Positions 8,500 through 58,031 of a DNA stretch of 64,000 nt are shown piece after piece. The first letter of the stretch is position 1. Each line of letters begins with the position of its first letter. Source of the DNA: Kutzneria viridogrisea (lineage in GTDB: Bacteria > Actinomycetota > Actinomycetes > Mycobacteriales > Pseudonocardiaceae). Position numbers and translations under genes: made by a program. The DNA is taken from assembly GCA_014138725.1 (NCBI GenBank), contig JACJID010000003.1, positions 372,001 through 436,000 on the forward strand. Direction: 5' to 3'. A model generated the notes under the pieces. It was not told the origin of the DNA, made no database searches, and saw only the letters and a list, made by a program, of their open reading frames with translations.

Positions 8500-9846
8500 T
8501 CAGGTGCTGAGCCGGTACCTGGCCAGCACCCGGTCCACCAGCGCACCGGCCGCACCGAGGTAGCGGGCGGGGTCGAGCAGGTCGTCGAGGGGCAGGTCCA
8601 CCTCGACCTGCTCGGCCAGCAGCTCGCGCAGCGGGCGCCCGCTGCGCGCGGCCTCGGCGGTGGCCGCACCCAGCACCTTCTTGGCCGCCGCCTTGCCCAG
8701 CACCGGAGCCAGCGCCACGTTCAGCCGCTCGCTGACGATCGCTCCACTGAGGACGTCCACAGTGGACGCCATACGTTCCGGGAACACCTCCAGGCCCTCG
8801 ACCAGCTCGGCGGCGGTGTGCGCCGCGCCGCCCGCCAGGCGCAGGGCCTCGCGCAGCGGCTGCCACTCGGCGTGCCAGGCACCGGCGGGCCGCTCGTCCT
8901 CGGCGACCATGGCCTGCGCGAGCACGCTGACCAGCGCGGGCAGTTGCCGTGCGGCGCTGACGATCAGCGTGGCCAGCACGGGGTTGCGCTTCTGGGGCAT
9001 CGCCGAGGACGCGCCCCTGCCCTCGGCCGCGGGCTCGGCCAGCTCGCCGATCTCCGTGCGGGACAGCACCTGCACGTCCAGCGCGATCTTGCCGAGCGCT
9101 CCGGTGACGATCTGCAGGGCACCGGCCACGTCCACCAGCGGGGTGCGCGCGGTGTGCCAGGGCAGCACCGGCACGGCCAGCCCCAGCTCCTCGGCGAAGG
9201 GCTCGATCAGCTCGACGCCACCGTCCACACCGGACAGCTTGGCGTACTCCACGTAGGCGGCCAGCGTTCCCGCGGCACCACCGAGTTCGGCGGGCAGCAC
9301 CAGGGCCTTGATCCGGTCCAACGCGTCCAGCACGAGCTGCAACCAGGTGGCCACCTTGAGCCCGAACGTGATCGGCACGGCGTGCTGGCCGAGCGTGCGA
9401 CCGGCCATGACGGTGTCGCGGTGCCGCTCCGCGAGCCCGGCCAGGGCGGCGGCCACCCGGCGCAGGTCGGGCACGAGCAGCCCCAGCGCGCGCTTGACCA
9501 CCAGCATCGTGGCCGAGTCCAGGATGTCCTGGCTGGTCGAGCCCCGGTGCACGTACTCCCTGGCCTCCTCGGGCAGCAGCGCGGTCAGCGCGGGCACGAA
9601 GGCCACCACGGGGTTGGCCGCCGCACGCGAACTCTCCGCCAGCTCGACCAGGTCGATGCGACCGGCGTCCACCGCGCTGATCGCCTCTGCGGCGGCGGCC
9701 GGGATCACGCCGAGCCGGGCCTGTGCCCTGGCCAGCGCGCCCTCCACGTCGACCATGGCGCGCAGCCAGGCCTCGTCCTCGACCGCACGCGCCACCGGCG
9801 TACCGGCCCACGTCGGGGCCAGCAGCCCGGAATCCGTTCCCGCCAC
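8500..9846 (-). CDS. Fumarase/aspartase-superfamily lyase, probable nitrosuccinate lyase (CreD-like)
   Basis: A 448-residue member of the adenylosuccinate lyase / 3-carboxymuconate cycloisomerase (PcaB) branch. The substrate-binding motif RGSTSQDILDSA lies near residue 100, and the flexible signature loop with the catalytic Ser is SSAMPQKRNP near residue 275. Family members eliminate from or cyclise succinyl-type substrates. The PcaB-like sequence alone would suggest protocatechuate catabolism. However, the gene follows an FAD enzyme of the aspartate N-oxidising type and sits in a 3,4-AHBA cluster, so release of nitrous acid from nitrosuccinate is favoured. The GTG at 9846 follows GAGGAGA. 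It is the last gene of the 12-gene operon. The assignment is an inference; the superfamily is certain. Confidence 0.8.
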   Translation of the reverse strand: MAGTDSGLLAPTWAGTPVARAVEDEAWLRAMVDVEGALARAQARLGVIPAAAAEAISAVDAGRIDLVELAESSRAAANPVVAFVPALTALLPEEAREYVHRGSTSQDILDSATMLVVKRALGLLVPDLRRVAAALAGLAERHRDTVMAGRTLGQHAVPITFGLKVATWLQLVLDALDRIKALVLPAELGGAAGTLAAYVEYAKLSGVDGGVELIEPFAEELGLAVPVLPWHTARTPLVDVAGALQIVTGALGKIALDVQVLSRTEIGELAEPAAEGRGASSAMPQKRNPVLATLIVSAARQLPALVSVLAQAMVAEDERPAGAWHAEWQPLREALRLAGGAAHTAAELVEGLEVFPERMASTVDVLSGAIVSERLNVALAPVLGKAAAKKVLGAATAEAARSGRPLRELLAEQVEVDLPLDDLLDPARYLGAAGALVDRVLARYRLST

Positions 9847-9857
9847 GGCAGTTCTCC

Positions 9858-11738
9858 TCACCCGGCGACCGTCGCCATGTCCCACTCGCGTCGCGGCGAC
9901 GCACAGCTCAGCGCCGCCCTGGCGATCGCGTCCGAGTCCTCCAGGGTCACCGAGCCCACCCCGGGCCGGATCCCGGCCGCGGTCACCCAATGTACGTACT
10001 CGGTCGGCACGCCGAACGCGAACCTCCTCGGGTGCGCCCGGTGTGCGGCGTCGATCACGTGGTACGGGCGTGCGGTGACGGCGACCCCGCCGCTGTCGAA
10101 CGGCTCCGCGGCCTCGTCGGGGATCCGGTAGGAGCGCACCTGGCCGGTGGCCCGCAGGTAGCGCAGCAGCGGATTGGTGCTGCGCGCCAGGTCGATGTCC
10201 GGGATGCGCGCCTCGACCAGCGTGGTCACGGCCACCGGCGGGGCGGGCACGGCCACCGCGTCCACCAGGAACGCCGTGCCGTCGGGCGCGCGGCGCACCC
10301 GGATGCCGGGACCGGCCACCCGCAGTACCCCTGCCTCGATCAGCGCGGTCATCTCCTCGATGCGGCGCAGTGGCGGCCCGATGGACAGGAAGGCGTTGAG
10401 CGGGGTGTACCAGCGGGCGAGTTCGTCGCGGTAGGAACTGCCGGTGATGCCGCCGTGGTCCACCACGAGCCGGATCTCGTTGCGCAGGTCCCGCAGCACG
10501 TCCAGGGCCGCCTTGAGCGGGCTGTGCACGTTGCCCCGGCGGGCCTGGTCGGCGTCGTGCCTCAGGTACTCCAGCAACCAGCGGTGGAAGGCCGTCGGGT
10601 CGGCGAACTCCCTGTCCCCGTAAGGACGGGCGACCCGCTCCCAGCTCCATCTGTCCTCTTCGGACACACCGTGCACGGTGAGCAGCGCGCTGTCGTCCTC
10701 CTCGGCGCGCAGCAGCTGCGCGTACTGCTCGGCGAAACCGGGCCGGTCGGCCAGCAGGGTGCCGTAGTAGACCGCGCGCACCTCCTTGTCGATCAGCGGC
10801 CAGATGTCGTGCATGAACCGGATGCTGGGGCGCGCCCGCAGGTCCTCGATCACCTCCGGGGTCAGGAACACCGGGTGGTGCCTGCCGACCGCGCCCTTCT
10901 GGTTCTCGCCCCGCGCGTGGTGCGGGATGCCCCGCCGCGATCCCGCGTACAGCAGGGGTTCCCGGCCGGACGGGTGGTACACCAGCCCGCTGGCGGTCGG
11001 TTCGAAGCGACCGCCACGCCCCTCGGTGAACAGAGCGAGGTAGTCGAAGAAGTTCAGGCCCATGCCGCGCAGCGCGACCCGCTCCCCCGGCGCGACACCG
11101 GACAGGTCCACGTCCGCGGGGTTGCTGGGCGGCACGTAGCGCAGGGCGTGCTGCTCGGCGAACTCGCGCAGTTCGGTCTCCTGCTCGGTGAGCACCACGG
11201 GCCCGTGCCCCAGCGCGAGCACCACCGCGTCCAGATTGTCCACAGTGGACCCGTTGTCCAGGGTCAGCACCTGGCGTCCGTCGCGGGCGTCCGCCAGGGT
11301 CAGCGCCGTGGCGCGGTGCACCGTCACGGCGATGCCCGGCTGCCCGGTCAGCCGCTGGAAGACCCACTCCAGGTAGTAGCCGTACAGCGAGCGGCTCGGG
11401 TAGGAGTCCGGCCCCAGCGCACGGGCCTCGGCCAGCACCCGCGGCGGGTACTCGCGGGAGTCGGCGTCCAGCGCCCACTCGTACAGGCTCGGCCCCGGCA
11501 CGATCGGGCCCTCGCACGCCACGCTCGGATCGGTGTAGAGGCTCACCTGGGAGGCCACGGTGTTCATCAGCAGGTGCCCGGACTGGTTGGTGCGCCAGAC
11601 CGAACCCGCACCGGGCGGGTACGGGTCGACCACGTGCACCTCGACCTCGACCTCACGGGGCCGGTTGGCGCAGATCCGTTCCAGCACGGAGGTCCCGCGC
11701 GGACCGGCGCCGACCAGGCAGATCCTGAGCACCGTCAT
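9858..11738 (-). CDS. FAD/NAD(P)-binding monooxygenase, probable aspartate N-oxygenase (CreE-like)
   Basis: A 626-residue flavoprotein. The N-terminal FAD fold CLVGAGPRGTSVLERI is followed by an acidic strand end in VHVVDPYPPGAGSVW, with further FAD/NAD contacts at LALGHGPV and ALRGMGLNFFD. Enzymes of this architecture (CreE of cremeomycin, FzmM of fosfazinomycin, from memory) oxidise L-aspartate to nitrosuccinate using NADPH and O2. The next gene encodes the matching lyase, so the pair can supply nitrous acid. Its ATG overlaps the epimerase stop (ATGA), and its stop overlaps the ribosome binding site of the lyase. A same-length paralogue lies at 38152-40032 without a lyase partner. Confidence 0.82.
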   Translation of the reverse strand: MTVLRICLVGAGPRGTSVLERICANRPREVEVEVHVVDPYPPGAGSVWRTNQSGHLLMNTVASQVSLYTDPSVACEGPIVPGPSLYEWALDADSREYPPRVLAEARALGPDSYPSRSLYGYYLEWVFQRLTGQPGIAVTVHRATALTLADARDGRQVLTLDNGSTVDNLDAVVLALGHGPVVLTEQETELREFAEQHALRYVPPSNPADVDLSGVAPGERVALRGMGLNFFDYLALFTEGRGGRFEPTASGLVYHPSGREPLLYAGSRRGIPHHARGENQKGAVGRHHPVFLTPEVIEDLRARPSIRFMHDIWPLIDKEVRAVYYGTLLADRPGFAEQYAQLLRAEEDDSALLTVHGVSEEDRWSWERVARPYGDREFADPTAFHRWLLEYLRHDADQARRGNVHSPLKAALDVLRDLRNEIRLVVDHGGITGSSYRDELARWYTPLNAFLSIGPPLRRIEEMTALIEAGVLRVAGPGIRVRRAPDGTAFLVDAVAVPAPPVAVTTLVEARIPDIDLARSTNPLLRYLRATGQVRSYRIPDEAAEPFDSGGVAVTARPYHVIDAAHRAHPRRFAFGVPTEYVHWVTAAGIRPGVGSVTLEDSDAIARAALSCASPRREWDMATVAG

Positions 11739-12679
11739 CGGCCCGCACCGACCAGGCACAGCCGCTGCCCGTTGCGCCAGCTGGACACGCCGGGCCGCCA
11801 GCCCAGTTGCTCGCGCGCCTTGCGGTTGCTGGCCCCGCGTAGCCGGGTCTGCTGGTGGGCCGCGAACCAGCCGAGCAGCCGCGCCCCCAGCTCCGCGGGC
11901 ACCTGGCGCGGGTGCGGCCCGTCGAAAGCCCTTGCGTAGTGCGGCAACCAGGTGCGGGCCGTGGCCGGATCGTCGTCGACGATGTTGAACAGCCCGGTGG
12001 CGCGGGACATCACGGCGGTGGCCGCCGCGTCGGCCGCGTCCTCCACGTGCAGGAAGGAGTTGATGCCGGTGCCGTCCCCGATCAGCGGCAGCTTGCCCAG
12101 CCGCACCGCCTGTCCGAACGGCCCGTTGAGGTCGTAGGCGGTGTCCCTGCCGTACAGCGTGCCGTAGCGCAGCACCACACCCTCGATGCCGGAAGTGTGC
12201 AGCACCAGGCGTTCCAGCTCCGCGATCGCACGCACGGTGGTGGACCACACGGCGTCGGGCGGGTCGAGGTAGAGCGGTGCCTCCTCGTCCAGCAGCGGCC
12301 CGCCGTGTGGGGCCGTGGCGAAGGCGATGCTCTGCGCCACGACCCGCCGCGTGCCCGAGGCCAGCGCCGCGTCCACCAGGTTGGCGGTGCCCTCGGTGCG
12401 GACCCGCGCGGTGCGCTCGAACACCTCCCACCGGGTGTCGCCGGTACCCGGTCGCAGCGCGGTCGCTTGGTGCACAACGACTTCCGGGGCCGCGCTGAAC
12501 ACGGCGGCGTGCACGGCGTGCCGGTCCAGCAGGTCGGCGACCACCACCCGGTCCACGTCCAGCTCCGCGGCGGCGGCCTGGTCGCGGACCAGCACCGTCA
12601 CGTGGTGGCGCTCCCCGCGCAGCAGCGGCAGCAGGGCACGGCCGATCACCCCGGTCGCACCGGCCAGCAGCACACGCAT
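11735..12679 (-). CDS. NAD-dependent epimerase/dehydratase (extended SDR) in the 3,4-AHBA cluster
   Basis: A 314-residue extended SDR. The Rossmann loop GATGVIGRALLPLL is at the N-terminus, an active-site Ser lies in VVAQSIAF, and a Tyr in LRYGTLYG. The usual YxxxK is not clearly present at its expected place, so the protein may reduce or dehydrate an unusual substrate or have an altered active site. In this operon it could act as ketoreductase or dehydratase on the carrier-bound aryl polyketide. That role is inferred only from context. Its stop overlaps the start of the FAD monooxygenase gene, and its start lies just downstream of the DUF6125-like gene. Confidence 0.8.
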   Translation of the reverse strand: MRVLLAGATGVIGRALLPLLRGERHHVTVLVRDQAAAAELDVDRVVVADLLDRHAVHAAVFSAAPEVVVHQATALRPGTGDTRWEVFERTARVRTEGTANLVDAALASGTRRVVAQSIAFATAPHGGPLLDEEAPLYLDPPDAVWSTTVRAIAELERLVLHTSGIEGVVLRYGTLYGRDTAYDLNGPFGQAVRLGKLPLIGDGTGINSFLHVEDAADAAATAVMSRATGLFNIVDDDPATARTWLPHYARAFDGPHPRQVPAELGARLLGWFAAHQQTRLRGASNRKAREQLGWRPGVSSWRNGQRLCLVGAGR

Positions 12680-12682
12680 GAT

Positions 12683-13177
12683 CTACTCCCCTGTCCCGGC
12701 GACCCTCATCAGCAGGCGGCACTGCGGATCACCGTGCCGCAGGCACCCGGTCGCCCTGTTCTCCGACAACTCCACGCCCAGGCCCTCGGCCCACCCGGCA
12801 TGGATTTCCGTGCAGGGGCACTGGTAGCCCTCCAACGAGCCCGCCATGCGCACCATGACCACCGCGAAGTTCTGCCGCATGGTCAGTTCCAACAGTTCCT
12901 CGTCCAGTGCGGTGACACCGCCGTCGCGCAGTTCGTTGGGGAACATGATGTCCGCGCACCGCTCGAACAGGGCCGCCAGTTCCTTGGCATCGGCCTGGTT
13001 CACCGGTTTGGCGAAGGCTCGCGCCACCTGTTTGCCCACCCGGGTGGCCACGAAGCGCAACGCCTCCGCGTTGATCTCGTTGGCCACCTCCTGCCCGAAC
13101 CGCTTGGCCACACCCTGGTACCAGCGGGCGTCGTGCAGCCACCACAGCCGGTACACCTCCATCGGCTGCATCGTCAT
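12683..13177 (-). CDS. DUF6125-like small protein in the 3,4-AHBA cluster
   Basis: A 164-residue cytoplasmic protein. The N-terminal VYRLWWLHDARWYQGVAKRF and RFGQEVANEINAEALRF resemble the DUF6125 group. The C-terminal third carries spaced cysteines and histidines (QCPCTEIHAGWAEGLG and GCLRHGDPQCRLLM) that could hold a metal or a catalytic Cys. No function is established to my knowledge. The ATG at 13177 shares one base with the stop of the ligase upstream, so it is coupled within the operon. It is a good candidate for an uncharacterised tailoring step. Confidence 0.65.
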   Translation of the reverse strand: MTMQPMEVYRLWWLHDARWYQGVAKRFGQEVANEINAEALRFVATRVGKQVARAFAKPVNQADAKELAALFERCADIMFPNELRDGGVTALDEELLELTMRQNFAVVMVRMAGSLEGYQCPCTEIHAGWAEGLGVELSENRATGCLRHGDPQCRLLMRVAGTGE

Positions 13178-14838
13178 CACCCCTGGTCGGCGCGGGCGAC
13201 CAGCTCGCGCGCACGCTCGCGCATCACCCGCTTGAGCACCTTGCCGGTGACCCCGGTGGACACGTCGGTGCTGTCCATGCGCAGCGCGCGGGTCACCGGC
13301 GGAAAGCCCTGTCCGGCAAGGACTTCGTTCACCCACCCGGTGAGATCCCCGGGTTCCCGCGCCCCATCGGTGAACTGGAGCAGCACGTACGCCTCGGCCA
13401 CGCCGTCACCGTCCCAGTCCGCGCGCACGCCCTCCTCGGCGATCGCGGTGACGGTACAGTCGGCCAGTTCCGGCAGGCTCGCCAGCAGCAGCTCCTCGGT
13501 GCGGGTGCTGAACACGATGCCCGCCTCGGTACGGATAGCGTCCGGTGCCCGGTCCAGGTGGTAGAAGTTGCCCTCGGCGTCCTGCATGGCCAGATCCCCG
13601 GTCAGCCAGTAACCGCCGAGCCGCAGCTTGTGCCAGGTGAGGCTGTCGTTCCAGTAGCCGGGGGTCAGCGTTGGCGAGCGCACGCCGAGCCTGCCGACCT
13701 CGCCGGCGGGCAGCGGGCGGCCGTCCTCGGACAGCACGGCGGCCTGCGCGAAGCTCATCGGCTTGCCGATGCAGCGGCCGAAGGAGGCGCTGCCCGGCTT
13801 GTGCCCGTTGTGGAAGATCGAGTAGCCGGTCTCCGAGGAGCCCAGGCCGTCGGTGAACACCGAGCCGGGCACCCGCACCGGCTTGAAGTCCGGGCCGATC
13901 TCCTCGTGGCTGCCCTGCGCGACCAGCACCCGGATGTGCGCCTCGTGGGCGGCGTCCCCGGTGTTGTAGTACGCCTCGATGCTGGACATGTCCCTTGTGG
14001 ACAGATCGGAGGTCGCGATCTGCCCGTAGGTGCCGGAGAAGCCGAACACCGTGGTGGGCTTGAACTTCTCGATGGCGTCGAGCACATCGCTGCCGCGCTG
14101 GCTGGACTGCAGGTACACCGGGGAGTCCAGCAGCAGGCCGAACATCATCACCGACATGGCCGCGTTGTGGTTGCCGGGCAGGGCGACCAGCAACCTGCCC
14201 ATGGACCCGCCCACGGACAGCTTGAGCCGGTGCAACTGGGCGTAGAGCAGGGTCTGGTGGGTGTGCGGCACGGCCTTGGGCATGCCGGTGGTGCCCGAGG
14301 AGTGCGAGATGATGATCGGGTCGGTCGGGTCGTGCCGGTAGGGCCAGCCCTGCGGCAACTGCGCGCGGTGCTCCGGCCGGATGTCCTCGGCGGTAACGAC
14401 AAAACCGAGCTCTCCCCCGGCGAGCACCTCGTGCCGCTCGGTGTCGGTGACCGCCCCGCTGGCGCCCTGGCGGCGGATGTACTCGCGCGCGATCTCCGGG
14501 CGCAGCTTGGCGTTGGCGAAGGACGGGATAGCACCCAGCGAGTTGATCGCCATGAAGTTGATCGCGAACTCGGTGCTGGAGGCGGTGAGCACCCCGACCA
14601 CGTCACGCGGGCGGATCCCCTTGCCGTGGTAGAAACCCGCATAGGTCTCCACGTACTCGTACAACTCGCCGAGCGTGATCACCTCGGGGTGGCTGCCGTC
14701 GGGTGCGCGCCAGGTGCCGTCGGTCCACAGCACCGGCCGGTCGGTGGGCCTGCCGTAGGCGCGCAGGCGGTGCAGCACGTTGCCCGCGCCCAACTCGGGG
14801 TCGGCGTTGATCTGCGCGCGTTCTTCCTTGGTGATCAC
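13177..14838 (-). CDS. AMP-dependent synthetase/ligase (adenylating enzyme 2)
   Basis: A 553-residue ANL-superfamily enzyme. The ATP-binding loop is SHSSGTTGMPKAVPH (near residue 190), the A5 motif GLGSSETGY, the hinge region YWLTGDLAM, and the C-terminal Lys lies in GKVLKRV. It activates a carboxylate as an acyl-adenylate. One of the two ligases in this operon should load 3,4-AHBA onto a carrier protein. The other may be the diazotase-type ligase (CreM-like) that activates nitrous acid; sequence alone does not say which is which. The GTG at 14838 overlaps the stop of the half-ketosynthase and follows GGAGGAACC. Confidence 0.85.
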   Translation of the reverse strand: MITKEERAQINADPELGAGNVLHRLRAYGRPTDRPVLWTDGTWRAPDGSHPEVITLGELYEYVETYAGFYHGKGIRPRDVVGVLTASSTEFAINFMAINSLGAIPSFANAKLRPEIAREYIRRQGASGAVTDTERHEVLAGGELGFVVTAEDIRPEHRAQLPQGWPYRHDPTDPIIISHSSGTTGMPKAVPHTHQTLLYAQLHRLKLSVGGSMGRLLVALPGNHNAAMSVMMFGLLLDSPVYLQSSQRGSDVLDAIEKFKPTTVFGFSGTYGQIATSDLSTRDMSSIEAYYNTGDAAHEAHIRVLVAQGSHEEIGPDFKPVRVPGSVFTDGLGSSETGYSIFHNGHKPGSASFGRCIGKPMSFAQAAVLSEDGRPLPAGEVGRLGVRSPTLTPGYWNDSLTWHKLRLGGYWLTGDLAMQDAEGNFYHLDRAPDAIRTEAGIVFSTRTEELLLASLPELADCTVTAIAEEGVRADWDGDGVAEAYVLLQFTDGAREPGDLTGWVNEVLAGQGFPPVTRALRMDSTDVSTGVTGKVLKRVMRERARELVARADQG

Positions 14839-15362
14839 GGTTCCTCCGGGTGGCGTTCGAGCAGCAGGGCGATCGCGAGGTCGTGCCGGGGCGCGGTCGC
14901 GGGCAGCAGGGACAGGGCGTGCGCGGCGCGCTCGGTGGGTACCAGCTCGACACCGAGCACCAGCACCGCGTCCAGCCCGGGGTCGGCCAGCAGCAGTTCG
15001 GCGGTGTCCAGCAGCTCGTCGTCCATGCCGTCCATGGTGGACAGTGCGAGCAGCGGTCCGGTGATGTCGAACTCGCGGCTGAGGTACCCGAGCACGGCGT
15101 TCGCGGTGGCCTGCATGAACAGCAGCGCATTGTGTACCTGGCCCTGCACCAGCAGGCGGCTGGCCAGGTCGGTGGTGGTGCAGTCGCCGACCAGGCTGCC
15201 GAGCACCACGGCGAGCCGGTCGCCGGGGATGTCCTGGCCCGCCAGGCAGTTCGTGGCCACGTGGTGCACCAGCGGGTTGAACGTGGACTCGATGAAGCCC
15301 GGCACGGCGGGCAGGTCGACCGGCCCGTCGACCTTGGCTGAGGAACGCACCCGCAGTGTCAT
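14835..15362 (-). CDS. Half-length ketosynthase-like protein lacking the active-site Cys
   Basis: A 175-residue protein covering only the N-terminal part of the thiolase fold. LAVVLGSLVGD and the helix FMQATANAVLGYLSREF align with the region before the ketosynthase nucleophile. Where a ketosynthase has TACAS it has ALSTMDGMDDELLD, so no Cys is present. The strand DAVLVLGVELVP then follows, and the protein stops. It cannot condense alone. It probably pairs with the full ketosynthase encoded immediately upstream (ATGA overlap), as a chain-length-factor-like or structural partner. It could instead be a degenerate remnant, but the intact frame and coupling argue for use. Confidence 0.75.
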   Translation of the reverse strand: MTLRVRSSAKVDGPVDLPAVPGFIESTFNPLVHHVATNCLAGQDIPGDRLAVVLGSLVGDCTTTDLASRLLVQGQVHNALLFMQATANAVLGYLSREFDITGPLLALSTMDGMDDELLDTAELLLADPGLDAVLVLGVELVPTERAAHALSLLPATAPRHDLAIALLLERHPEEP

Positions 15363-16480
15363 GCGTGCTCCAGCACGATCGCGGTGTTCATGCCGCCGAA
15401 CGCGGCGTTGAGGCTGAGCACCTGGCGCAGGTCGGCCTTGCGCGGGCCCTCGGTGACGTAGTCCAGGTCGCAGGCCGGGTCCGGGGCGAAGTAGTTGGCC
15501 GTCGGCGGGACCACCCCGTCCAGCAGGGCCAGCAGTGAGATCACGAACTCCACGGCCCCCGAGGCCTCCAGCATGTGCCCGGTCGTGCCCTTGGTCGAAC
15601 TGACCACTGTGGATGGTCCGAGCACCGAGCGCAGCCCATTGGTCTCCGCGCTGTCGTTGAGCGGGGTCCCGGTGCCGTGCGCGTTCACGTAGTCCACTGT
15701 GGATAGTCCTGCCCTGTTCAGCGCCTGGCGGGCCGCGGCGGCCATGCCCCGGCCCTCGGGGTGCGGCTTGGCCACGTGGTAGGCGTCCGAGGCGATGCCC
15801 CAGCCGGTGAAGCGGGCCAGCACCCGCGCACCCCGCTCCCGCGCGGTCCTGGCCGACTCCAGCACGAGGACCGCGACCCCGTCGCCCAGCAGCAGGCCGC
15901 TGCGACCGGCGGAGAAGGGCCGCACCGCACCGTCCTTGGCCAGCGCGCGCCCGGAGTCGAACTTGGCGTGGTTCTCCTCCTCCACCAGGTACGCCCCCGC
16001 GCACACGGCGGCGGGCGCCCAGCCGGAGCTGACCAGCCGCCAGCCGTGGATGAGCGCGCTGGCCGAGGCGACGCAGGCGTTGGTGAAGGCCAGCCGCCTG
16101 CCGTGCAGGCCGAGCCGGTCGGCCAGGCCCTGGGCCAGGTGGGCGGGCACGCTGTCGGCGAGCCCGGTCTCCTCCCGCTCGCGCCAGAACCGGGTGACGG
16201 CCGTCCAGTCCCCCGCCGAGCCGACCAGCACCGCGGCCTGCGCGCCCCGGTTCAGTCCGGCCATGGTGACCGCGTCGTGCGCGCAGTCGTGGAGCACCTC
16301 CCGCAGCACCGGCTCGCCGGGCGCGGCGGCCGTCATCGGCGTGCGGTAGGGGGTGGGGTCGAACCGGGTGGCGGCGGCGAAGGCGGGCACACCCGCGAAC
16401 ACCCCGTCCCGCACGGCCTGCGCACCGCGCCCGAAGGCGGTGTGCACGCCGAACCCGGTGACCACCACCTCCTCGGTCAT
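15359..16480 (-). CDS. Beta-ketoacyl-ACP synthase (type II PKS ketosynthase)
   Basis: A 373-residue decarboxylating condensing enzyme. The nucleophile Cys lies in FTNACVASASAL (near residue 165), the first His in VNAHGTGTPLND (near residue 270), and the Lys and second His in STKGTTGHMLEASG (near residue 305); the C-terminal glycine loop is NAAFGGMN. All catalytic residues are present. It should extend a carrier-bound starter, probably 3,4-AHBA or a derivative, with malonyl units. The ATG overlaps the stop of the second carrier-protein gene, and its own stop overlaps the start of the half-ketosynthase. No acyltransferase is encoded nearby, so malonyl loading must be borrowed from fatty-acid synthesis. 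Confidence 0.92.
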   Translation of the reverse strand: MTEEVVVTGFGVHTAFGRGAQAVRDGVFAGVPAFAAATRFDPTPYRTPMTAAAPGEPVLREVLHDCAHDAVTMAGLNRGAQAAVLVGSAGDWTAVTRFWREREETGLADSVPAHLAQGLADRLGLHGRRLAFTNACVASASALIHGWRLVSSGWAPAAVCAGAYLVEEENHAKFDSGRALAKDGAVRPFSAGRSGLLLGDGVAVLVLESARTARERGARVLARFTGWGIASDAYHVAKPHPEGRGMAAAARQALNRAGLSTVDYVNAHGTGTPLNDSAETNGLRSVLGPSTVVSSTKGTTGHMLEASGAVEFVISLLALLDGVVPPTANYFAPDPACDLDYVTEGPRKADLRQVLSLNAAFGGMNTAIVLEHA

Positions 16481-16710
16481 CGCACCGCCCCGGAGTTGAG
16501 GTACTCGGTGATGCCCGCGACCGAGTCGAACCGGGCCAGGTCCTCGTCGGAGGGGTCCACGGTCAGCCCGAACCTGGCCTGCACCTGGTGCAGCAGCCAC
16601 ACCAGTGCCATGGAGTCCAGCACCAGCGGGGCGTCGTCGGCCAGGTCGGCGGGCAGGTCGGGGAAGACCTTGCGGTCGGCCAGCAGCTCGCGCACCTGCT
16701 CGGTGGTCAC
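16477..16710 (-). CDS. Acyl carrier protein B
   Basis: A 77-residue acidic four-helix carrier. The phosphopantetheine Ser lies in PLVLDSMALVWLLH (near residue 33), preceding a conserved recognition helix. It lies between a second carrier and the ketosynthase, overlapping both by four bases. Two distinct carriers in one operon suggest separate jobs, such as starter activation and chain extension. Confidence 0.9.
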   Translation of the reverse strand: MTTEQVRELLADRKVFPDLPADLADDAPLVLDSMALVWLLHQVQARFGLTVDPSDEDLARFDSVAGITEYLNSGAVR

Positions 16711-16982
16711 GCCGCCGCCCTGCGCCGCACGATGTCGTCCACCAGCTGGCCCAGGGTCATCGCGCCGATGGCCTCGATGTCCGAGTCCGGGATCTTCACC
16801 TCGAACTGGCGCTCCAGCCGCAGGGTCAGCTCGACCAGGCTCAACGACTCCAGGTCGATGCCGCTGGTGCCGATGGGGCTGTCGTCGGTGAGCGAGTCGC
16901 GGTCGATGGGCACGTTCATCTCGGTGGCCAGGGTGCTGAGCACGAACTCGCGGACGTCCTGGCTGTGCACGGAGCTGGTCAT
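16707..16982 (-). CDS. Acyl carrier protein A
   Basis: A 91-residue carrier protein. The modified Ser lies in GIDLESLSLVELTLRL (near residue 45) and helix IV is MTLGQLVDDIV. The ATG at 16982 follows AGGGAAGG, and the gene lies 17 bases downstream of the ligase at 17000-18358, its likely partner. Its stop overlaps the start of carrier B. It differs clearly in sequence from carrier B, so this is not a recent duplication. Confidence 0.9.
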   Translation of the reverse strand: MTSSVHSQDVREFVLSTLATEMNVPIDRDSLTDDSPIGTSGIDLESLSLVELTLRLERQFEVKIPDSDIEAIGAMTLGQLVDDIVRRRAAA

Positions 16983-16999
16983 GGAACCTTCCCTTGTCG

Positions 17000-18358
17000 T
17001 CAACTGATCGCCGCGCGCAGGACCGACCGCTCGCGGATGAGCTTTCCGTTGGAGGTGCGCGGGAGCTGGGGCAGCACCCACACCGACTTGGGCAGCTTGA
17101 AGTCGGCCAGGAAGCTGCGGCACCACAGGATCAGATCCTCGGCGGCCACCGCCTTGTCCACTGTGGACACGTACGCCTCGATGGACTCGCCGTGCACCAG
17201 CACCGCCTCGGTGATCGCCGGGTGCCTGCCGAGCACCGCCTCCACCTCGGTCAGGTCCACCTTGAGCCCGCCGATGACCACCAGCGAGTCGCCCCTGCCC
17301 AGCAGCCGCACCCCGCCGCCGGTGGTCAGTTCCGCGCGGTCGCGGGTGCGCAGCCAGCCGGCCACGAACCGCTCCTGCCCGTCGGCGGTGAGGTACGGGG
17401 TGCCCTCCAGCGCCACCTCGACCTCGCCGTCGACCAGCCGCAGCCGGATACCCGGGGCCGCGGGGCCGACCGCGGGGCGCTGCCGCCCGCTGACGTCCAT
17501 GGCGATGACCCCGGTCTCGGTGGTGCCGTAGGACTCCCCCACCGGCACGCCGTAGGCCAGCCGGAACCGCTCGGCCACCTCCGGCGGCATGATCTCCCCA
17601 CCGGAGACGGCCACCCGCAGGGCGGGCAGCGCGGGCGGGGTGGGCAGCGAACCCAGCAGCTCGTAGTGGAACGGCACGCCGAAGATCGCCGTGACCTCGT
17701 GCTTGCGCGCGGCGTCGAGCATGTCGGCGGCGGCCACGCGCGGGGCGAAGACCACTGTGACGCCAACGGCGAGCGAGTGCAGCAGCCCGGCGATCAGCCC
17801 GAAGCTGTGCGCGGTGGAACTGAGCAGCAGCACGCGGTCGCCGTACTTGGGCATGCCCTCGATCCGGGTGAAGCGCTCGATCTCCTCCGCCAGCGAGCTC
17901 TCGGTGCGGCCGATCACCTTGGGCAGCCCCGTGGAACCCGAGCTGAACTGCACGAGCCGGTGCGCCGTGTCGGCGGGCTTGCCGTCCGACCGCTTCTCGG
18001 TGACCAGTTCGTGCCGTGCCCGGAAGTTCAGCCGCGACCACCCGGCGGCACCGGCCCGCACCACGAACTGCGGGCGGCACAACGCACGCAGCGCGTCGAC
18101 CTCGGCCGGCTTGAGCCGGTGGTCGATCAGCATCACCTGGGCGCCCAGCCGCCACAGGGCGAGCAGCACCTCCACCTGGGTGAAGCTGGGCGGCACCTGG
18201 AGCGCGACGGTGCTGCCCGGTCCCACGCCCGCCGAGGCGAACAGCGCGGTCTCGTGCGCCACCGCCTCACGCAGTTCCCCGTGCGTCACAACGTGATCGG
18301 CCACCAGGTAGGGCAGGTCGTCCGGATGGCGATCCAGCAGGTCCTCCACCAGCCGCAT
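17000..18358 (-). CDS. AMP-dependent synthetase/ligase (adenylating enzyme 1)
   Basis: A compact 452-residue ANL enzyme. The P-loop is QFSSGSTGLPKVIG (near residue 140), A5 is ESYGTTETGV, the hinge is LLGRGDSLVVIGGLKVDL, and the catalytic Lys lies in TSNGKLIRERS near the C-terminus. It activates a carboxylic acid with ATP. Its place directly after the 3,4-AHBA synthesis genes and directly before a carrier-protein gene makes it the best candidate for loading 3,4-AHBA onto carrier A. It is shorter than most aryl-CoA ligases but has all core motifs. Confidence 0.88.
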   Translation of the reverse strand: MRLVEDLLDRHPDDLPYLVADHVVTHGELREAVAHETALFASAGVGPGSTVALQVPPSFTQVEVLLALWRLGAQVMLIDHRLKPAEVDALRALCRPQFVVRAGAAGWSRLNFRARHELVTEKRSDGKPADTAHRLVQFSSGSTGLPKVIGRTESSLAEEIERFTRIEGMPKYGDRVLLLSSTAHSFGLIAGLLHSLAVGVTVVFAPRVAAADMLDAARKHEVTAIFGVPFHYELLGSLPTPPALPALRVAVSGGEIMPPEVAERFRLAYGVPVGESYGTTETGVIAMDVSGRQRPAVGPAAPGIRLRLVDGEVEVALEGTPYLTADGQERFVAGWLRTRDRAELTTGGGVRLLGRGDSLVVIGGLKVDLTEVEAVLGRHPAITEAVLVHGESIEAYVSTVDKAVAAEDLILWCRSFLADFKLPKSVWVLPQLPRTSNGKLIRERSVLRAAIS

Positions 18359-18363
18359 CGTGA

Positions 18364-19455
18364 TCAGCTCTCCTTGCAGAACTCACCGATGGGGATGCCG
18401 ACGTGGCGCTTGTCGGTGGCGATGTAGCCCAGCAGTTCGTCACCGGCCTGCAACTCCGTGACGTTGCGGACCTTGCCGCCGGGACCGAGCACCCGCACGT
18501 GCCAGTCGTCCTGCACGGTCAGGCTGACCTTGACGCCCTCCGGCGAGTGCGCGGTGATCGTCAGCAGCGGGCGGGACTCCAGCTTGGCCCGGCCGACCAC
18601 CACGCGGCGGGTGCGGCCCTCCGCGTTGACCGCCAGGGTGACGCTGCCGGACTTGAGCTCGCTGAGGTAGTTCGTGCGGTTGTCCGGGCCCAGCACGTAG
18701 GAGTGCAGCGCGCCCGCGTTGACCCGGAACGGCCGGGTCGGCATGTACGGCAGCGGGTGGGTCTCGCTACAGCACAGGATGAACCCGGAGGAGTAGGAGC
18801 CGACGAGGATGCCCTCGTCCTCCTCGAAGTGCGAGCAGGTGTCCACGCAGACCCGGTCGCCGAGCCCGTTGTGCTCGATGCCCTCCACGACCAGCGTGCT
18901 CAGCGCGAGGTCCTGGGTGCCCGCCTCCAGAAGCCTTGCCAGCGCGAAGACCTCGGTGGCGTCGCGGGGCGCGAGCATGACCCCGTCCGAGCCGTGCTCC
19001 AGCACGTCCAGCACGATCGTGGCCTCTTCGAGGTCGGCGACCACGCAGATCAGCTTGCCCTGCGCGCGGTCGGCCGCCGCGATCACGATCTCCAGCGGGA
19101 TCTTCGTCGGGTCCACGAAGCTCACCACGGTGTAGGGCAGGGCGACCGCCGCGGCGCAGGCCAGCTTCAGCGTGCGGTCGTCGGCCACCTCCACGAACAC
19201 CGCGCCGCTGTGGTTCTCCGCGACGAGGCGGTCCAACTGGTCGGCGTCGGTGAGCACGGTGGTCACCAGGTCCACCTGTGCGTCGGTGACGGGCTGCGCG
19301 GGCAGCAGCACCTTGGTCACCGTGGGCGGCAGCGAGGCGAGCACCTCGGGCCTGTCGGAGACCACGCCCTGCACACGGGCGTGCACGGCCGCGGCGACCA
19401 CGGCCTCCAACTGCGTGTCGGCGGTGGAGCGGAGGTCGATCCATGCGAATTTCAC
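18364..19455 (-). CDS. 3,4-AHBA synthase, 3-dehydroquinate synthase II family (GriH-like)
   Basis: A 363-residue archaeal-type dehydroquinate synthase homologue. Recognisable segments are VSFVDPTKIPLEIVIA, GSYSSGFILCCSETH and FRVNAGALHSYVLG, plus a C-terminal beta domain ending VGIPIGEFCKES. In grixazone biosynthesis the homologue GriH converts the C7 aldol product made by GriI into 3-amino-4-hydroxybenzoate, using an amino-ketone rather than the dehydroquinate precursor. The GTG at 19455 overlaps the stop of the aldolase gene, so the pair is translationally coupled. A primary-metabolism role is unlikely because actinomycetes use AroB. Confidence 0.9.
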   Translation of the reverse strand: MKFAWIDLRSTADTQLEAVVAAAVHARVQGVVSDRPEVLASLPPTVTKVLLPAQPVTDAQVDLVTTVLTDADQLDRLVAENHSGAVFVEVADDRTLKLACAAAVALPYTVVSFVDPTKIPLEIVIAAADRAQGKLICVVADLEEATIVLDVLEHGSDGVMLAPRDATEVFALARLLEAGTQDLALSTLVVEGIEHNGLGDRVCVDTCSHFEEDEGILVGSYSSGFILCCSETHPLPYMPTRPFRVNAGALHSYVLGPDNRTNYLSELKSGSVTLAVNAEGRTRRVVVGRAKLESRPLLTITAHSPEGVKVSLTVQDDWHVRVLGPGGKVRNVTELQAGDELLGYIATDKRHVGIPIGEFCKES

Positions 19456-20270
19456 GCGGCACCTGCACCTGTCGTCATCGAGGGGTGGTTGGCTACGGCG
19501 TCGGGGTGCAGCACGGCGGCCAGCCGGTGCACCAGCGACAACGGGTTGGGCGCGGAGAACACCCTGCGGCCGATGGCAAGTCCCGCGCAGCCCACGTCCA
19601 GCGCGGCGCGGGCGTACTCGGCCAGGCCCGAGCCGTCCGGGTCGGCCTGCGCGGGCGGACCGCCCGCGGCCAGCACGGGGATCGGGCAGCTGGCGGTGAC
19701 CTCGGCCATGCGGTCCACCGGCAGGGCCATGGAGGTCTTCACCAGGTCCGCGCCGAGATCGGCGGCGATGTTCACCACGTGGGCGAGCACCTCGGGGTCG
19801 TGCGAGTCACGCACCCGGGGGCCTCGGGCGTAGGCCATCGCGATCAGCGGGACGTTCCACTCCTGGCAGGAGCTGGCCACCGCACCCAGGTCGGCCAGTT
19901 GCCGCGCCTCGGTGTCCGAGCCGACGTTGACGTGCACGCTGACCGCGTCGGCGCCCAGCCGCAGCGCGTCCTCCACGTCGCCGACGAGCACCTTGGCGTG
20001 GGCGTCGGCGGCGTGCACCGTGCCCGCGCTCAGGTGCACCACCAGGGCGCAGTCCTCCAGCAGTTCGGGGCTGATCGCCCGGATCCGTCCTTTGTGGACG
20101 ATTATCGCGTCGGCCCCGCCGAGCACCAGGTCGCGGATCAGCTCGTCCCAGTCCTCGTTGCCCGCCACGGGCCCGTCGGAGACGCTGTGGTCCAGCGGTA
20201 CGAACAGGTACCTGCCGTCCCCCGCCCGCGACAGACGCCGCAGGCGAAGCGCTTTCCCGGTGTCAGCCAC
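19452..20270 (-). CDS. Class I (DhnA-type) aldolase for 3,4-AHBA synthesis (GriI-like)
   Basis: A 272-residue TIM-barrel aldolase. VPLDHSVSDGP carries the catalytic Asp near residue 30, VSVHVNVGSD lies mid-barrel, and the Schiff-base Lys is in ADLVKTSMALP near residue 175. GriI joins aspartate semialdehyde and dihydroxyacetone phosphate to give the C7 amino sugar-like precursor of 3,4-AHBA. The frame is open to 20408, but the GTG at 20270 is chosen because GAGGTG precedes it by six bases and a candidate LysR site lies further upstream; GTG 20279 is an alternative. It is the first gene of the long leftward operon. Confidence 0.9.
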   Translation of the reverse strand: MADTGKALRLRRLSRAGDGRYLFVPLDHSVSDGPVAGNEDWDELIRDLVLGGADAIIVHKGRIRAISPELLEDCALVVHLSAGTVHAADAHAKVLVGDVEDALRLGADAVSVHVNVGSDTEARQLADLGAVASSCQEWNVPLIAMAYARGPRVRDSHDPEVLAHVVNIAADLGADLVKTSMALPVDRMAEVTASCPIPVLAAGGPPAQADPDGSGLAEYARAALDVGCAGLAIGRRVFSAPNPLSLVHRLAAVLHPDAVANHPSMTTGAGAA

Positions 20271-20583
20271 GTTGCGCACCTCGTCCCCACTCCCGTTGTG
20301 ACCCGAGATGATTGTTTTCGCGTAAATCAGGGCACGGCCAGTATCAACCTGCGATAACTCCGCAGTTATGCAACGCGGATCACGGCACTCTGACAATGCA
20401 CCGAACAAGCTCTGATCCTACTTTGAAGTACGTCTGGTATGCGCGGCACGACCAGTAGGTCAACTGTGAACACACAGGCACGTTCGCTCCGTCCGAACGT
20501 CGCTGTCACCCATGGACGCAGGTGGTTAACATGCTTTTGCATCGATACGCGTCAGCAATATGTCCTCAGATCGGAGAGGCGCC
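20271..20583. promoter_or_regulatory. Divergent control region of the 3,4-AHBA cluster
   Basis: This gap of about 313 bp separates the leftward operon from the rightward flavodoxin-MFS genes and is visibly less GC-rich than its surroundings. It contains the symmetrical element ATAACT-CCGC-AGTTAT at 20354-20369, 84 bases before the aldolase start, which has the T-N11-A form of LysR sites. The cluster's own LysR regulator (22615-23568) is the natural candidate ligand. No convincing sigma-factor consensus was identified by eye. Confidence 0.55.
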
Positions 20584-21186
20584 GTGCCTATTTCTGTCCG
20601 GGTCGCCATCGCCTACCACGGCGGAGGAGGACATACCGCCAGATTCGCGGAGGCGGTCGGTTCCGGAGCGAGTTCGGTACCCGGGTGTGAATCGCTGCTG
20701 ATCCCAGTGGCGCAGATGTCGGCGGCCGACTGGACGGCACTGGACGAGGCCGAGGCCATCGTCTTCGGCGCACCCACGTACATGGGCACCGCCTCGGCGG
20801 CCTTCCACGCCTTCGCGGAGGAGACCGCGCGCCGCTGGCTGCGGCAGAGCTGGCGGGACAAGCTGGCGGCGGGCTTCACCAACTCCGGCTCCAAGGCCGG
20901 GGACAAGTCCTCCACCCTGGCCTACTTCGCCACACTGGCCGCCCAGCACGGCATGACCTGGGTCAACCTTGGCCTGCTGCCGGGCTGGAACCGCGCCCGG
21001 GGCAGCGAGCAGGACCTGAACCGGCTGGGCTTCCACAACGGGGCCGCCGCACAGTCCAATGTGGACTCCAAGCCGGAGGACGTGCACCGCGCGGACCTGG
21101 CCACCGCCGAGCACCTCGGCCGCAGGGTCGCCGAGCAGGCGCTGGTCGTGGCGGCGGGCCGGGCCGCACTGGCACCCGCGCGGTGA
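20584..21186 (+). CDS. Flavodoxin-fold NAD(P)H-dependent reductase (WrbA-like)
   Basis: A 200-residue FMN-binding flavodoxin-like protein. The phosphate-binding loop lies in IAYHGGGGHTARFAEAVG (residues about 7-24), flavin-contacting loops at IVFGAPTYMGTASAAFHAF and TNSGSKAGDKSST. Such proteins reduce quinones, nitroso or azo compounds with NAD(P)H. In this cluster it could supply reduced flavin or reduce a nitroso or quinone-imine intermediate; this is inference. The GTG at 20584 is chosen because GGAGAGG precedes it; an ATG at 20560 is possible. It ends with a GTGA overlap into the MFS gene. Confidence 0.82.
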   Translation: MPISVRVAIAYHGGGGHTARFAEAVGSGASSVPGCESLLIPVAQMSAADWTALDEAEAIVFGAPTYMGTASAAFHAFAEETARRWLRQSWRDKLAAGFTNSGSKAGDKSSTLAYFATLAAQHGMTWVNLGLLPGWNRARGSEQDLNRLGFHNGAAAQSNVDSKPEDVHRADLATAEHLGRRVAEQALVVAAGRAALAPAR

Positions 21187-22595
21187 GCCTCGCGCTGGAA
21201 CGCCCCACACGCTGGTCCGCGGTGCTCGGGGTCGCGGTGCTGGCCCAGACCCTGGTGTCCATGGACAGCTCGGTGCTCAACATCGCGGTGAAGACCCTGG
21301 CCGACCCGGTGTCCGGGCTCGGTGCGAGCCCGGACCAGCTGGCCTGGGCGATCAACGCCTACACCGTGGTGTTCGCCTCGGCGATGTTCGCGGGCGGCGC
21401 GCTGGCCGACCGGTTCGGGCAGCGCCGCGCCCTGGTCGCCGGGCTGCTGCTGTTCTCGGTGACCTCCGCGCTGGCCGCGTTCGCCAGTACCCCGGTGCAG
21501 TTGGTGCTGGCCAGGGGCGCGATGGGGCTGGGCGGAGCGCTGCTGATGCCTGCCACACTCGCCATCGTGATCATGGCTTCGCGGCCGGAGCAACGCAGCA
21601 GGGCCATCGCGATCTGGGCCTCGGCCGCCGCGGTGGGGCTGGCCATCGGCCCGGTCGCGGGCGGGGCGCTGCTGGGCTGGTTCTGGTGGGGCTCGGTGTT
21701 CCTGATCAACGTGCCGATCGTGCTGCTGTGCCTGGTCGGCATCGCGCTGTGGGTGCCGGAGTACCGCGCCGACCGGCCACGACCACTGGACCCGCTGGGG
21801 CTCGTGCTGTCCTTCGCCGGGCTGGGCGGGGTGGTCTTCGGCGTGATCAACGCGGGCCAGGACTGGCTCCGGCTGGACGTGCTCGGCCCGATCCTGGTGG
21901 GACTGGCCCTACTCGGGGCGTTCGCCGTGGCACAGCTGCGCGCCGCGGAGCCCAGCTTCGACGTGCGGCTGTTCACCCGGCGCCGGTTCGCGGGCGGCAG
22001 CCTCAGCCTGATGATCGCCTTCTTCGGCGTGTCCGGGCAGCTGTTCTACGCCACCTTCTACCTCCAGGACGTGCGCGGGCTGAGCCCGCTGGCGGCCGGG
22101 CTGGCCACCGCGCCGACCGCGCTGGGCATCGTGCTGGGCAACCTGGTGGCACCCGGTCTGGTCGCGCGCTGGTCCACCCGCTGGGTGGCCGCGGTGGGCA
22201 TGGCCGTCAGCATCGCGACCTTCGGCAGCTACGTGCTGTTCGACCAGCACACGCCGATCGCCTGGTACGCCGCGATGATGCTGGTGCAGGGCGCCGCGAT
22301 GGGGCTGGTCGCCGTGCCGTCCACGGCGGCGTCCATGGCCGCGCTGCCGCCGGAGCGCAGCGGGGCGGGGTCGGCGGTGACCAGCGCGATGCGCCAGGTG
22401 GGCAGCGCGCTGGGCGTGGCGGTGGTCGGTTCGCTGCTGACCTCCTCCTACCGGGCCGCGGCCGGGTCGTGGACCGGCGCCTCGTTCACCGACGGCGCGG
22501 CCTACCTGCACGCGATGGCCTTCGCCGCGGGCTGGACCTGCCTGCTCTGCCTGGCCGGGCTCGCGCTGATCGTGGTGTGCCTGAACGAGAACTGA
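21183..22595 (+). CDS. MFS exporter, DHA2 (14-TMS) family
   Basis: A 470-residue proton-driven efflux protein with about 14 predicted membrane helices. The motif-A loop is ADRFGQRRALVAG after helix 2, and motif C-like glycines occur in AAAVGLAIGPVAGGALLG. It belongs to the EmrB/QacA group, whose members export antibiotics from producers. The GTG start overlaps the flavodoxin stop, so the two are co-translated. It is probably the self-resistance and export pump for the cluster product. Confidence 0.92.
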   Translation: MSLALERPTRWSAVLGVAVLAQTLVSMDSSVLNIAVKTLADPVSGLGASPDQLAWAINAYTVVFASAMFAGGALADRFGQRRALVAGLLLFSVTSALAAFASTPVQLVLARGAMGLGGALLMPATLAIVIMASRPEQRSRAIAIWASAAAVGLAIGPVAGGALLGWFWWGSVFLINVPIVLLCLVGIALWVPEYRADRPRPLDPLGLVLSFAGLGGVVFGVINAGQDWLRLDVLGPILVGLALLGAFAVAQLRAAEPSFDVRLFTRRRFAGGSLSLMIAFFGVSGQLFYATFYLQDVRGLSPLAAGLATAPTALGIVLGNLVAPGLVARWSTRWVAAVGMAVSIATFGSYVLFDQHTPIAWYAAMMLVQGAAMGLVAVPSTAASMAALPPERSGAGSAVTSAMRQVGSALGVAVVGSLLTSSYRAAAGSWTGASFTDGAAYLHAMAFAAGWTCLLCLAGLALIVVCLNEN

Positions 22596-22614
22596 ACACT
22601 GAGGGGAAAACATC

Positions 22615-23568
22615 GTGCAGGTCGAGTTGCGACATCTCCAGGTGGTGCTGTCGGTGGCCGAGGCGGGCAGCATCAGCCGGGCGGCGATCCAGCTGCGGAT
22701 CGCCCAGTCCGGACTGACCGCGCAGTTGCAGCGCATCGAGCAGGAGTTCGGCGGGCCGCTGTTCGCGCGCAACCCGGCCGGGGTGGAGCTGACCGAACTG
22801 GGTGAGCACGTGGTGTGCCGGTCGCGGGAACTGCTGGGGCAGTTCGACGACCTGCTGGAGACCTCCCGGCTACTCACCAACACCGACCAGCCCGCCTCGC
22901 CGGTGCTGGTGACCGGCCCGCTGGGCCCGGTGGTGGCGATGCTGGCCTGCGCGGTGCGCGAGTCGCTGCCCGACCGCGAGCAGGTGACCTCGCTGGAGCG
23001 CACCTTCGAGTCGCTGAACGAGGTGCTGCGCTCCCCGGAGTTCGACGTGGGTGTGGTGCCGGAACTGGCGGAACTGGCCGTGCACCTGCCCGCCGGGCTG
23101 ATGACCAGACCGCTGGTCGAGGAGTCCGCGTTCGTCGGGCTGTCCAGCTCGCACCCACTGGCCGACCGGGCCGAGCTGCGGCTGGCGGAGCTGGCCGGGC
23201 AGGACTGGGTAATGCCCGAGGAGAAGCTGTCCGGGCTGAGCCCGGGCCTGCGGCTGGCCTGCGAGGAGGCCGGGTTCACGCCCAGGTGCAGGCACACCGG
23301 TGCGGACCTGGCGACCGCGCTGATGCTGGTGCGCTCCGGCAACGCGATCGGGGCGTTCTACCCCACGGGGGTGCACAGCCCCGGCATGGTGCTGCGCCCG
23401 CTGGTCGGCAACCCGCTGCGGCGCAAACTCGTGCTGGCCTGGCGCAGCGGCTCGCCAGTGGCCGAGGTCATCGACCACGTGCACGAGACCGTGGTGAAGC
23501 GGTACCAGACCCTCGTACACGGGCACCCGGTCTACTCCCAGTGGCAGGCCCGCCAGCAAGCATCTTAG
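22615..23568 (+). CDS. LysR-family transcriptional regulator of the cluster
   Basis: A 317-residue LTTR. The winged HTH spans residues about 1-60 (LRHLQVVLSVAEAGSISRAAIQLRIAQSGLTAQLQRIE), followed by the linker helix and a two-lobed effector domain (LVTGPLGPVVAMLA through VRSGNAIGAFYP). The GTG at 22615 follows GAGGGGAAAA. It starts 19 bases after the MFS gene and is likely co-transcribed. LTTRs usually bind T-N11-A palindromes; one occurs at 20354-20369 upstream of the main operon. The effector could be the aromatic product or precursor. Confidence 0.9.
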   Translation: MQVELRHLQVVLSVAEAGSISRAAIQLRIAQSGLTAQLQRIEQEFGGPLFARNPAGVELTELGEHVVCRSRELLGQFDDLLETSRLLTNTDQPASPVLVTGPLGPVVAMLACAVRESLPDREQVTSLERTFESLNEVLRSPEFDVGVVPELAELAVHLPAGLMTRPLVEESAFVGLSSSHPLADRAELRLAELAGQDWVMPEEKLSGLSPGLRLACEEAGFTPRCRHTGADLATALMLVRSGNAIGAFYPTGVHSPGMVLRPLVGNPLRRKLVLAWRSGSPVAEVIDHVHETVVKRYQTLVHGHPVYSQWQARQQAS

Positions 23569-56743: not shown

Positions 56744-56754
56744 GGAGAAAACCC

Positions 56755-57477: not shown

Positions 57478-58031
57478 CCACCCCCTCGCAGACGGTCGGC
57501 CCGTTCTTCGCGCTGCCCGGCGGCATCCCGTGGCCCGACGGCCCCGAGGTGGTGCCGGCGGGCACGCCGGGGGCCGTGCTGATCAGCGGCACCGTGCTGG
57601 ACGGGGCCGGTGCGCCGGTGCCCGACGCCGTGATCGAGACCTGGCAGGCCAGCCCCACCGGCCGGTTCGCGCACCCCGACGACCCGCGCGGTGCCGTGCA
57701 GGAGGGGTTCCGCGGCTTCGGGCGCTGCGCCACCGACGCGCAGGGCCGCTACTGGGTCCGCACCGTCAAACCGGGTGCGCTGCCCACCGCCGACGGCCAG
57801 GTGGAGGCCCCGCACCTGGACGTGTCGGTGCTGGCGCGTGGGCTGCTCAACCGGCTGGTGACCCGGATCTACTTCCCCGACGAGCCAGCGGCCAACGCCG
57901 CCGACCCCGTGCTGGCCGCCATCGCCGACCCGGCGGAGCGTGCGAGCCTGGTCGCGGTGCCCACACAGGACGGCCTGCGCTTCGACATCCGCTTGCAGGG
58001 CGAGGGCGAGACCACTTTCTTCGAGGTGTGA
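57474..58031 (+). CDS. pcaG: Protocatechuate 3,4-dioxygenase alpha subunit
   Basis: The 185-residue alpha subunit. It begins SQTVGPFFALP, has the domain core VLISGTVLDGAGAPVPDAVIETWQA and GRFAHPDD (Phe at the position of the first iron Tyr, so no iron site), and ends TTFFEV. It forms the mixed dioxygenase with pcaH. The GTG start overlaps the pcaH stop. In many actinobacteria pcaB follows here, but this locus goes straight to pcaL. Confidence 0.94.
   Translation: MTTPSQTVGPFFALPGGIPWPDGPEVVPAGTPGAVLISGTVLDGAGAPVPDAVIETWQASPTGRFAHPDDPRGAVQEGFRGFGRCATDAQGRYWVRTVKPGALPTADGQVEAPHLDVSVLARGLLNRLVTRIYFPDEPAANAADPVLAAIADPAERASLVAVPTQDGLRFDIRLQGEGETTFFEV

Follow-up and report, generated by a model that had tools for sequence, protein, structure and literature searches.

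A Kutzneria gene cluster matching the published cma locus for p-coumaric acid, and a nearby pca operon without pcaB

Gene content and layout of the cluster

The window analyzed here is a stretch of 64,000 nucleotides from Kutzneria viridogrisea, whose genome spans 10.25 Mb in 11 contigs. An intact cluster of 15 genes, each located and translated in the window and each with an open frame, occupies positions 8500-23568. Twelve genes run on the minus strand from 20270 down to 8500, with neighbours overlapping or lying at most 17 bases apart; the other three run in the opposite direction, on the plus strand, at 20560-23568. The genes named by the first-pass annotation were found in place, with intact frames. 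Ten of the 15 genes, plus cmaG and cmaF, were compared with NCBIfam; Pfam was also used, and comparison with solved structures (PDB) was run for A6, E and D. Gene names follow the cma cluster discussed below.

The minus-strand operon opens with cmaI (19452-20270), encoding a DhnA-type aldolase for the first step to 3-amino-4-hydroxybenzoate (3,4-AHBA), and cmaH (18364-19455), encoding a 3,4-AHBA synthase of the DHQ synthase II type. CmaI passed PRK07226 (302 bits; cut-off 241) and missed BagB/FevI (288 bits; cut-off 500). CmaH, in turn, passed PRK02290.1-3 (539 bits; cut-off 375), missed BagC/FevH (426 bits; cut-off 750) and matched the Pfam family DHQS PF01959 with 371 bits. Both had been read as 3,4-AHBA synthesis genes from the outset, and the family matches agree.

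The genes of a type II PKS follow, as had also been proposed. CmaA1 (17000-18358, minus; AMP-binding, 162 bits) is the ligase that transfers 3,4-AHBA to the carrier CmaA3, a role taken from PMC10777205. The malonyl-extender carrier protein CmaA2 (16707-16982, minus, with an ATG start at 16982) gave a PP-binding match of 33 bits for a query that began one codon upstream, at 16985, while the starter carrier protein CmaA3 (16477-16710, minus) scored 20.3 bits, just below the 20.8 cut-off. CmaA4 (15359-16480, minus) is a ketosynthase with the Cys present in NACVAS; it reached 256 bits against fabF, below the equivalog cut-off, and its ketoacyl-synt domains were above the cut-off in Pfam. CmaA5 (14835-15362, minus) is a half-size protein of 175 aa without the active-site Cys, weakly matching ketoacyl-synt (19.3 bits; cut-off 20.8), and a protein 50-68% identical occupies the same position in all 23 related loci (see below). 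Thus, the two adenylating enzymes, two carriers, full ketosynthase and half-size ketosynthase-like protein of the first-pass annotation are all present. Its half-ketosynthase is identified as the chain-length factor CmaA5, and of its adenylating enzymes one is indeed a ligase, CmaA1, while the other is the diazotase CmaA6. With starts picked automatically, the length of CmaA5 comes to about 165-175 aa for Kutzneria, against 209-293 aa for the Streptomyces clusters (207 aa for L034), many of which have a C-terminal HAHQ tail on this protein.

CmaA6 (13177-14838, minus), an ATP-dependent diazotase, scored 1093 bits against NF058622 (cut-off 975), the NCBIfam equivalog for AvaA6, 3-aminoavenalumate diazotase. 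CmaA7 (11735-12679, minus), an NADPH-dependent denitrifying reductase, scored 506 bits against NF058621 (cut-off 400), the equivalog for AvaA7, 3-diazoavenalumate denitrifying reductase. Between them lies cmaB (12683-13177, minus), whose DUF6125/ATC-hydrolase-like product exceeded the PF14196 cut-off narrowly (28.2 against 28.1 bits). The SDR gene and the DUF6125-like gene, once suggested to add an undescribed step, are cmaA7 and cmaB, and such a step was rejected. The operon is closed by cmaE (9858-11738, minus) for an L-aspartate N-monooxygenase (nitrosuccinate synthase) and cmaD (8500-9846, minus) for a nitrosuccinate lyase.

The plus-strand genes are cmaG, cmaF and cmaR. CmaG (20560-21186), which the earlier gene list had missed, is an FMN-reductase-like protein (FMN_red, 33.6 bits), assigned from this match and the published gene order as the FMN-dependent oxidoreductase that is presumed to act as ketoreductase. 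CmaF (21183-22595) is an MFS exporter (MFS_1, 202 bits) and CmaR (22615-23568) a LysR regulator (LysR_substrate, 74 bits; HTH_1, 64 bits); Pfam thus supports the exporter and regulator described before.

Correspondence with the cma cluster and proposed pathway

The cma cluster of K. albida JCM 3240 makes p-coumaric acid via 3-amino- and 3-diazocoumaric acid, according to heterologous expression and enzyme assays (PMC10777205). The same source gives its genes as cmaR, F, G, I, H, A1 to A6, B, A7, E and D, and the cloned operon as cmaI-H-A1-A2-A3-A4-A5-A6-B-A7-E-D. Set against Table 1 and the cloned operon of PMC10777205, the window holds all 15 genes in the identical order; no gene-level difference from the K. 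albida cluster was found in this comparison of gene content and order.

The window A6 and PDB chain 8ztz_B are identical at all 553 residues, and 9ijf was matched as well. PDB lists 8ztz_B as 'Putative AMP-binding enzyme', and a literature search by PDB code found no paper for 8ZTZ or 9IJF; we take this chain (8ZTZ/9IJF) to be CmaA6. A review assigns CmaA6 to UniProt W5W4E6 of K. albida DSM 43870 (PMC11705231). In four other named Kutzneria records, A6 is 83-86% identical to the window copy. The window A3 also has Trp38 and His41 at the positions named for CmaA3 in PMC10777205, where the mass of CmaA3 is given as m/z 1087.9 at 10+. The value computed for the window A3, with an assumed tag construct, was 1101.0 with both Met residues, and 1087.9 was reached only with one Met removed.

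Judging from these sequence comparisons, the window cluster is almost certainly the characterized cma cluster for p-coumaric acid, from Kutzneria albida or an extremely close strain or species. Because the stretch corresponds to this published cluster, the finding is already explained. The cluster has been known since its publication in 2024 and is no new combination of genes. A new product class was also considered and rejected, the gene set being equal to cma.

In the proposed pathway, CmaI and CmaH would form 3,4-AHBA, which CmaA1 would load onto the carrier CmaA3. CmaA4, CmaA5 and CmaA2, together with CmaB and CmaG, would then extend the starter by one malonyl unit, yielding 3-aminocoumaric acid, aided by a fatty-acid dehydratase and a thioesterase. 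CmaE and CmaD would convert aspartate into nitrous acid, with which CmaA6 would diazotize the amino group at the expense of ATP. Finally, CmaA7 would put a hydride from NADPH in place of the diazo group, with release of N2. Of these steps, the loading of A3 by A1 and the diazotization by A6 have been demonstrated experimentally, whereas kinetics were measured for the homologue AvaA7 and the role of CmaA7 is assigned by analogy; the same paper presumes that CmaG is the ketoreductase and expects CmaB to act on the PKS as a stimulating factor, like AvaB (PMC10777205). By analogy with the published cluster, the window copy probably acts in the same way and yields p-coumaric acid. Deamination by way of a diazo compound, one of the options given in the first-pass annotation, agrees with the published cma chemistry. 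The extended arylpolyene-type acid that it favoured does not agree, since the published K. albida product is the shorter p-coumaric acid, made with one extension.

The ava cluster of Streptomyces sp. RI-77, which makes avenalumic acid, shares with the window homologues of I, H, A1-A7, B, E, D and F, and shares diazotization-dependent deamination with cma. With a gene set this homologous, and with CmaA6 accepting 3-aminoavenalumic acid in vitro (PMC10777205), one might suppose that the window cluster is of the ava type and makes avenalumic acid or a longer aryl-polyene acid. However, the ava cluster has avaA8 (FabG) and avaC (a transporter), lacks cmaG and cmaR and gives a longer product. In Pfam scans, neither the 15 cluster genes nor their three neighbours next to cmaD (6.2-8.4 kb) included a FabG-like ketoreductase corresponding to avaA8; the window has a single MFS gene in the cluster, and cmaG and cmaR are there instead. 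Moreover, the products reported for the expressed cma cluster are p-coumaric acid and N-acetyl-3-aminocoumaric acid, with no avenalumic acid, and the chain-length factors of the two systems are only 35.4% identical (PMC10777205). We therefore regard an ava-type product as very improbable.

Another related system is the cremeomycin cluster (cre), which builds on 3,4-AHBA and an ATP-dependent diazotase and shares with the window the CreE/CreD route to nitrous acid; it is not known to include a PKS extension. Given CreE/CreD homologues next to 3,4-AHBA genes, a cremeomycin-like cluster would be conceivable. Yet cremeomycin retains the diazo group, unlike the product of cma, and the operon in the window includes A7, above the cut-off of the diazo-removing family. 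Such evidence makes retention of the diazo group in the end product extremely unlikely.

A search of genome contigs with A6 gave 24 loci, 23 of which carried the cluster; the remaining one, L051, was rejected as a chance A6 match. The operon is not a chance assembly, as other genera carry this gene set too, and in an identical order. A6 was above the cut-off in 10 of the 60 genomes searched (own included), and all seven Kutzneria genomes, again counting our own, had both A6 and A7 above the curated cut-offs. Among the 23 loci, A7 was missing only from L034, B only from L048, and cmaG was present in ten. E and D lay within the fetched flanks in 17 loci and were absent from them in six (L034, L038, L043, L046, L047 and L049, of which L047 stops at a contig end). 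PMC10777205 counts 72 of 134 related clusters that lack homologues of E and D, a larger share than here.

Several of these loci depart from the common plan. L034 of Streptomyces typhae is cma-like at 0.9-12.2 kb, with an A6 71% identical, and ends after B. Neither A7 nor E and D occur in its flanks, the best A7-family match in that genome (53.6 bits) is below the cut-off, and CreE homologues are found elsewhere in it; this cluster might stop at a diazo or amino compound. In L028 of Lentzea sp. NBRC 105346, the lyase is 82-83% identical to that of the window (74-76% for the other named Kutzneria copies) and the order of cmaF and cmaR is swapped, which hints at a transfer or a misnamed strain. 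L048 of Allokutzneria sp. A3M-2-11 16 is also cma-like, but its G lies beyond D, at the opposite end of the cluster.

The nitrous-acid module: CmaE and CmaD

The only PDB match of CmaE at E <= 0.001 was the L-aspartate N-hydroxylase 8CP2 (690 bits), and no NCBIfam family was matched at this threshold. In the alignment, CmaE keeps the equivalents of 8CP2 Trp51, Asn62 and Asn413, residues of the aspartate N-hydroxylase described in PMC10404684. The structure match and these residues, rather than a tree, support the placement of the FAD enzyme among aspartate N-hydroxylases. Together with the position of CmaD nearest to CreD, this bears out the nitrous-acid module proposed for the cluster. Elsewhere, the window encodes one more CreE-like FAD protein (38158-39987, plus strand), which shares 39% identity with CmaE; next come a gene at 40103 and two acyl-CoA-dehydrogenase-like genes. 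All five other Kutzneria genomes that were compared have this gene group, with the FAD protein 62-65% identical.

CmaD is less straightforward to name. In NCBIfam, it scored 609.5 bits against the nitrosuccinate-lyase model NF052556, below the cut-off of 650, and 367.1 bits against the PcaB model TIGR02426, above the cut-off of 355.75; score cut-offs alone would therefore misname it. These scores are what one would expect if the lyase were truly PcaB and the cluster had no nitrous-acid module, and the pca genes described below point the same way: the genome has pcaHG and pcaDC with no pcaB between them, and CmaD is its only PcaB-family lyase above the cut-off. Against this stand the best PDB match, CreD, with 460 bits versus 279 for PcaB 1q5n, the position of cmaD directly after cmaE, and the phylogeny. 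In trees of 49 and 62 lyases, CmaD fell into starred clades of ava/cma-type lyases and was closer to CreD than to PcaB. The larger clade including CreD and CmaD had 34 rows and support of 98/99 in the 62-lyase tree; in the 49-lyase tree, it had 27 rows and support of 94/93, just below the star threshold. Nearly all lyases adjoining pcaHG fell outside this CreD-side clade, the exceptions being L066 (G007), which diverges basally on the CreD side, and L154 (G013), a long branch of uncertain place. The grouping of the lyase with PcaB, which had been named as grounds for dropping the nitrous-acid reading, was thus not observed: in both trees, CmaD sides with CreD and AvaD. The tree and the gene context outweigh the NCBIfam model, which is not in the nitrous-acid pathway definition, and we consider a PcaB without a nitrous-acid module exceedingly improbable.

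At the residue level, CmaD keeps Glu49, His118, Asp125, His253 and Arg341, the catalytic residues of CreD (PMC13411527), in an alignment for which the numbering of the chain was taken to differ by 13 from that of the paper. According to the same source, PcaB-type CMLE also has Glu49 and His118, and hydronitrating homologues also have Arg341, so these three residues do not separate the CreD type from the PcaB type; a PcaB-type enzyme can, furthermore, add nitrite to fumarate (PMC13411527). We also considered the Gln in the SSAMPQKRNP loop, where CreD has His, as a Kutzneria-specific shift, and rejected it: all 17 lyases taken from related named clusters have Gln, including those from Streptomyces.

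A pca operon without pcaB

Further along the window (54019-59926, plus strand) lie pcaI, pcaJ, pcaF, pcaH, pcaG, pcaDC and pcaR, for the protocatechuate branch of the beta-ketoadipate pathway. PcaH, PcaG, PcaDC and PcaR were above their cut-offs and PcaF was below its own; pcaI and pcaJ were named from position and weak family matches. No pcaB was found between pcaG and pcaDC in this operon. In the whole genome, CmaD (367 bits) was the sole PcaB-family match above the cut-off, the next match reaching 83 bits. The five other Kutzneria genomes that have pcaH show this pca gene order too, again with no pcaB. In all six (G000-G003, G005 and G006), the cma lyase alone matched the PcaB family at E <= 1e-40, and it lies on the same contig as pcaH, about 34-48 kb away. 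The seventh genome, G004 (4.7 Mb), gave no pcaH match.

Across the 60 genomes searched, pcaH was found in 44 (own included), none of which lacked a PcaB-family match altogether. Such a match lay within 6 kb of pcaH in 30 of the 44, of whose lyases the trees took in only a part. In ten of the other 14 (the six Kutzneria, G012, G021, G026 and G034), the single match at E <= 1e-40 belonged to the CreD clade. The lyases of G010 and G035, more than 6 kb from pcaH, fell with PcaB, that of G019, also more than 6 kb away, was outside both the CreD and the PcaB groups, and G056, with two matches, neither within 6 kb of pcaH, was left out of the trees. These genomes are related and, therefore, the counts are not independent.

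With CreE presence judged at one threshold (E <= 1e-110), seven of the ten genomes with only a CreD-clade lyase had a match, partial in G026 (residues 3-335), as did four of the other 34 pcaH-bearing genomes. G012, G021 and G034 gave no CreE match at this threshold, and therefore their lyases may have no nitrosuccinate to act on. L137, L138 and L148 are the CreD-clade lyases of these three genomes, and a scan of ten of their neighbouring genes in all showed no clear gene for pca or diazo chemistry; a neighbour of L137 is an alpha/beta hydrolase with a weak PcaDC match (71 bits; cut-off 390).

This distribution of genes would fit CreD-clade lyases taking the place of PcaB. A pca operon whose gap is filled by an unrelated enzyme, or a pca route that is broken, would fit it just as well. 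It is tempting to suppose that CmaD serves Kutzneria both as nitrosuccinate lyase and as 3-carboxymuconate cycloisomerase (PcaB) and, more broadly, that CreD-clade lyases took over from PcaB across five genera within a single actinomycete family; at present, we hold this to be an unlikely, if possible, scenario. A literature search on pcaB loss, or on nitrosuccinate lyase with cycloisomerase, showed nothing on this question in the titles and the starts of the abstracts of the matches listed.

Overall, the cma cluster is a published case in which a common plant acid is made at high cost. That a gene-by-gene reading made from the letters alone got its chemistry largely right serves as a check on the scan. 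The question of the lyase and pcaB matters more than the cluster and is worth following up. If a nitrosuccinate lyase does act as PcaB, the nitrous acid chemistry of secondary metabolism would be tied to aromatic catabolism, and automatic names for the CreD/PcaB lyase family would be unreliable in both directions.
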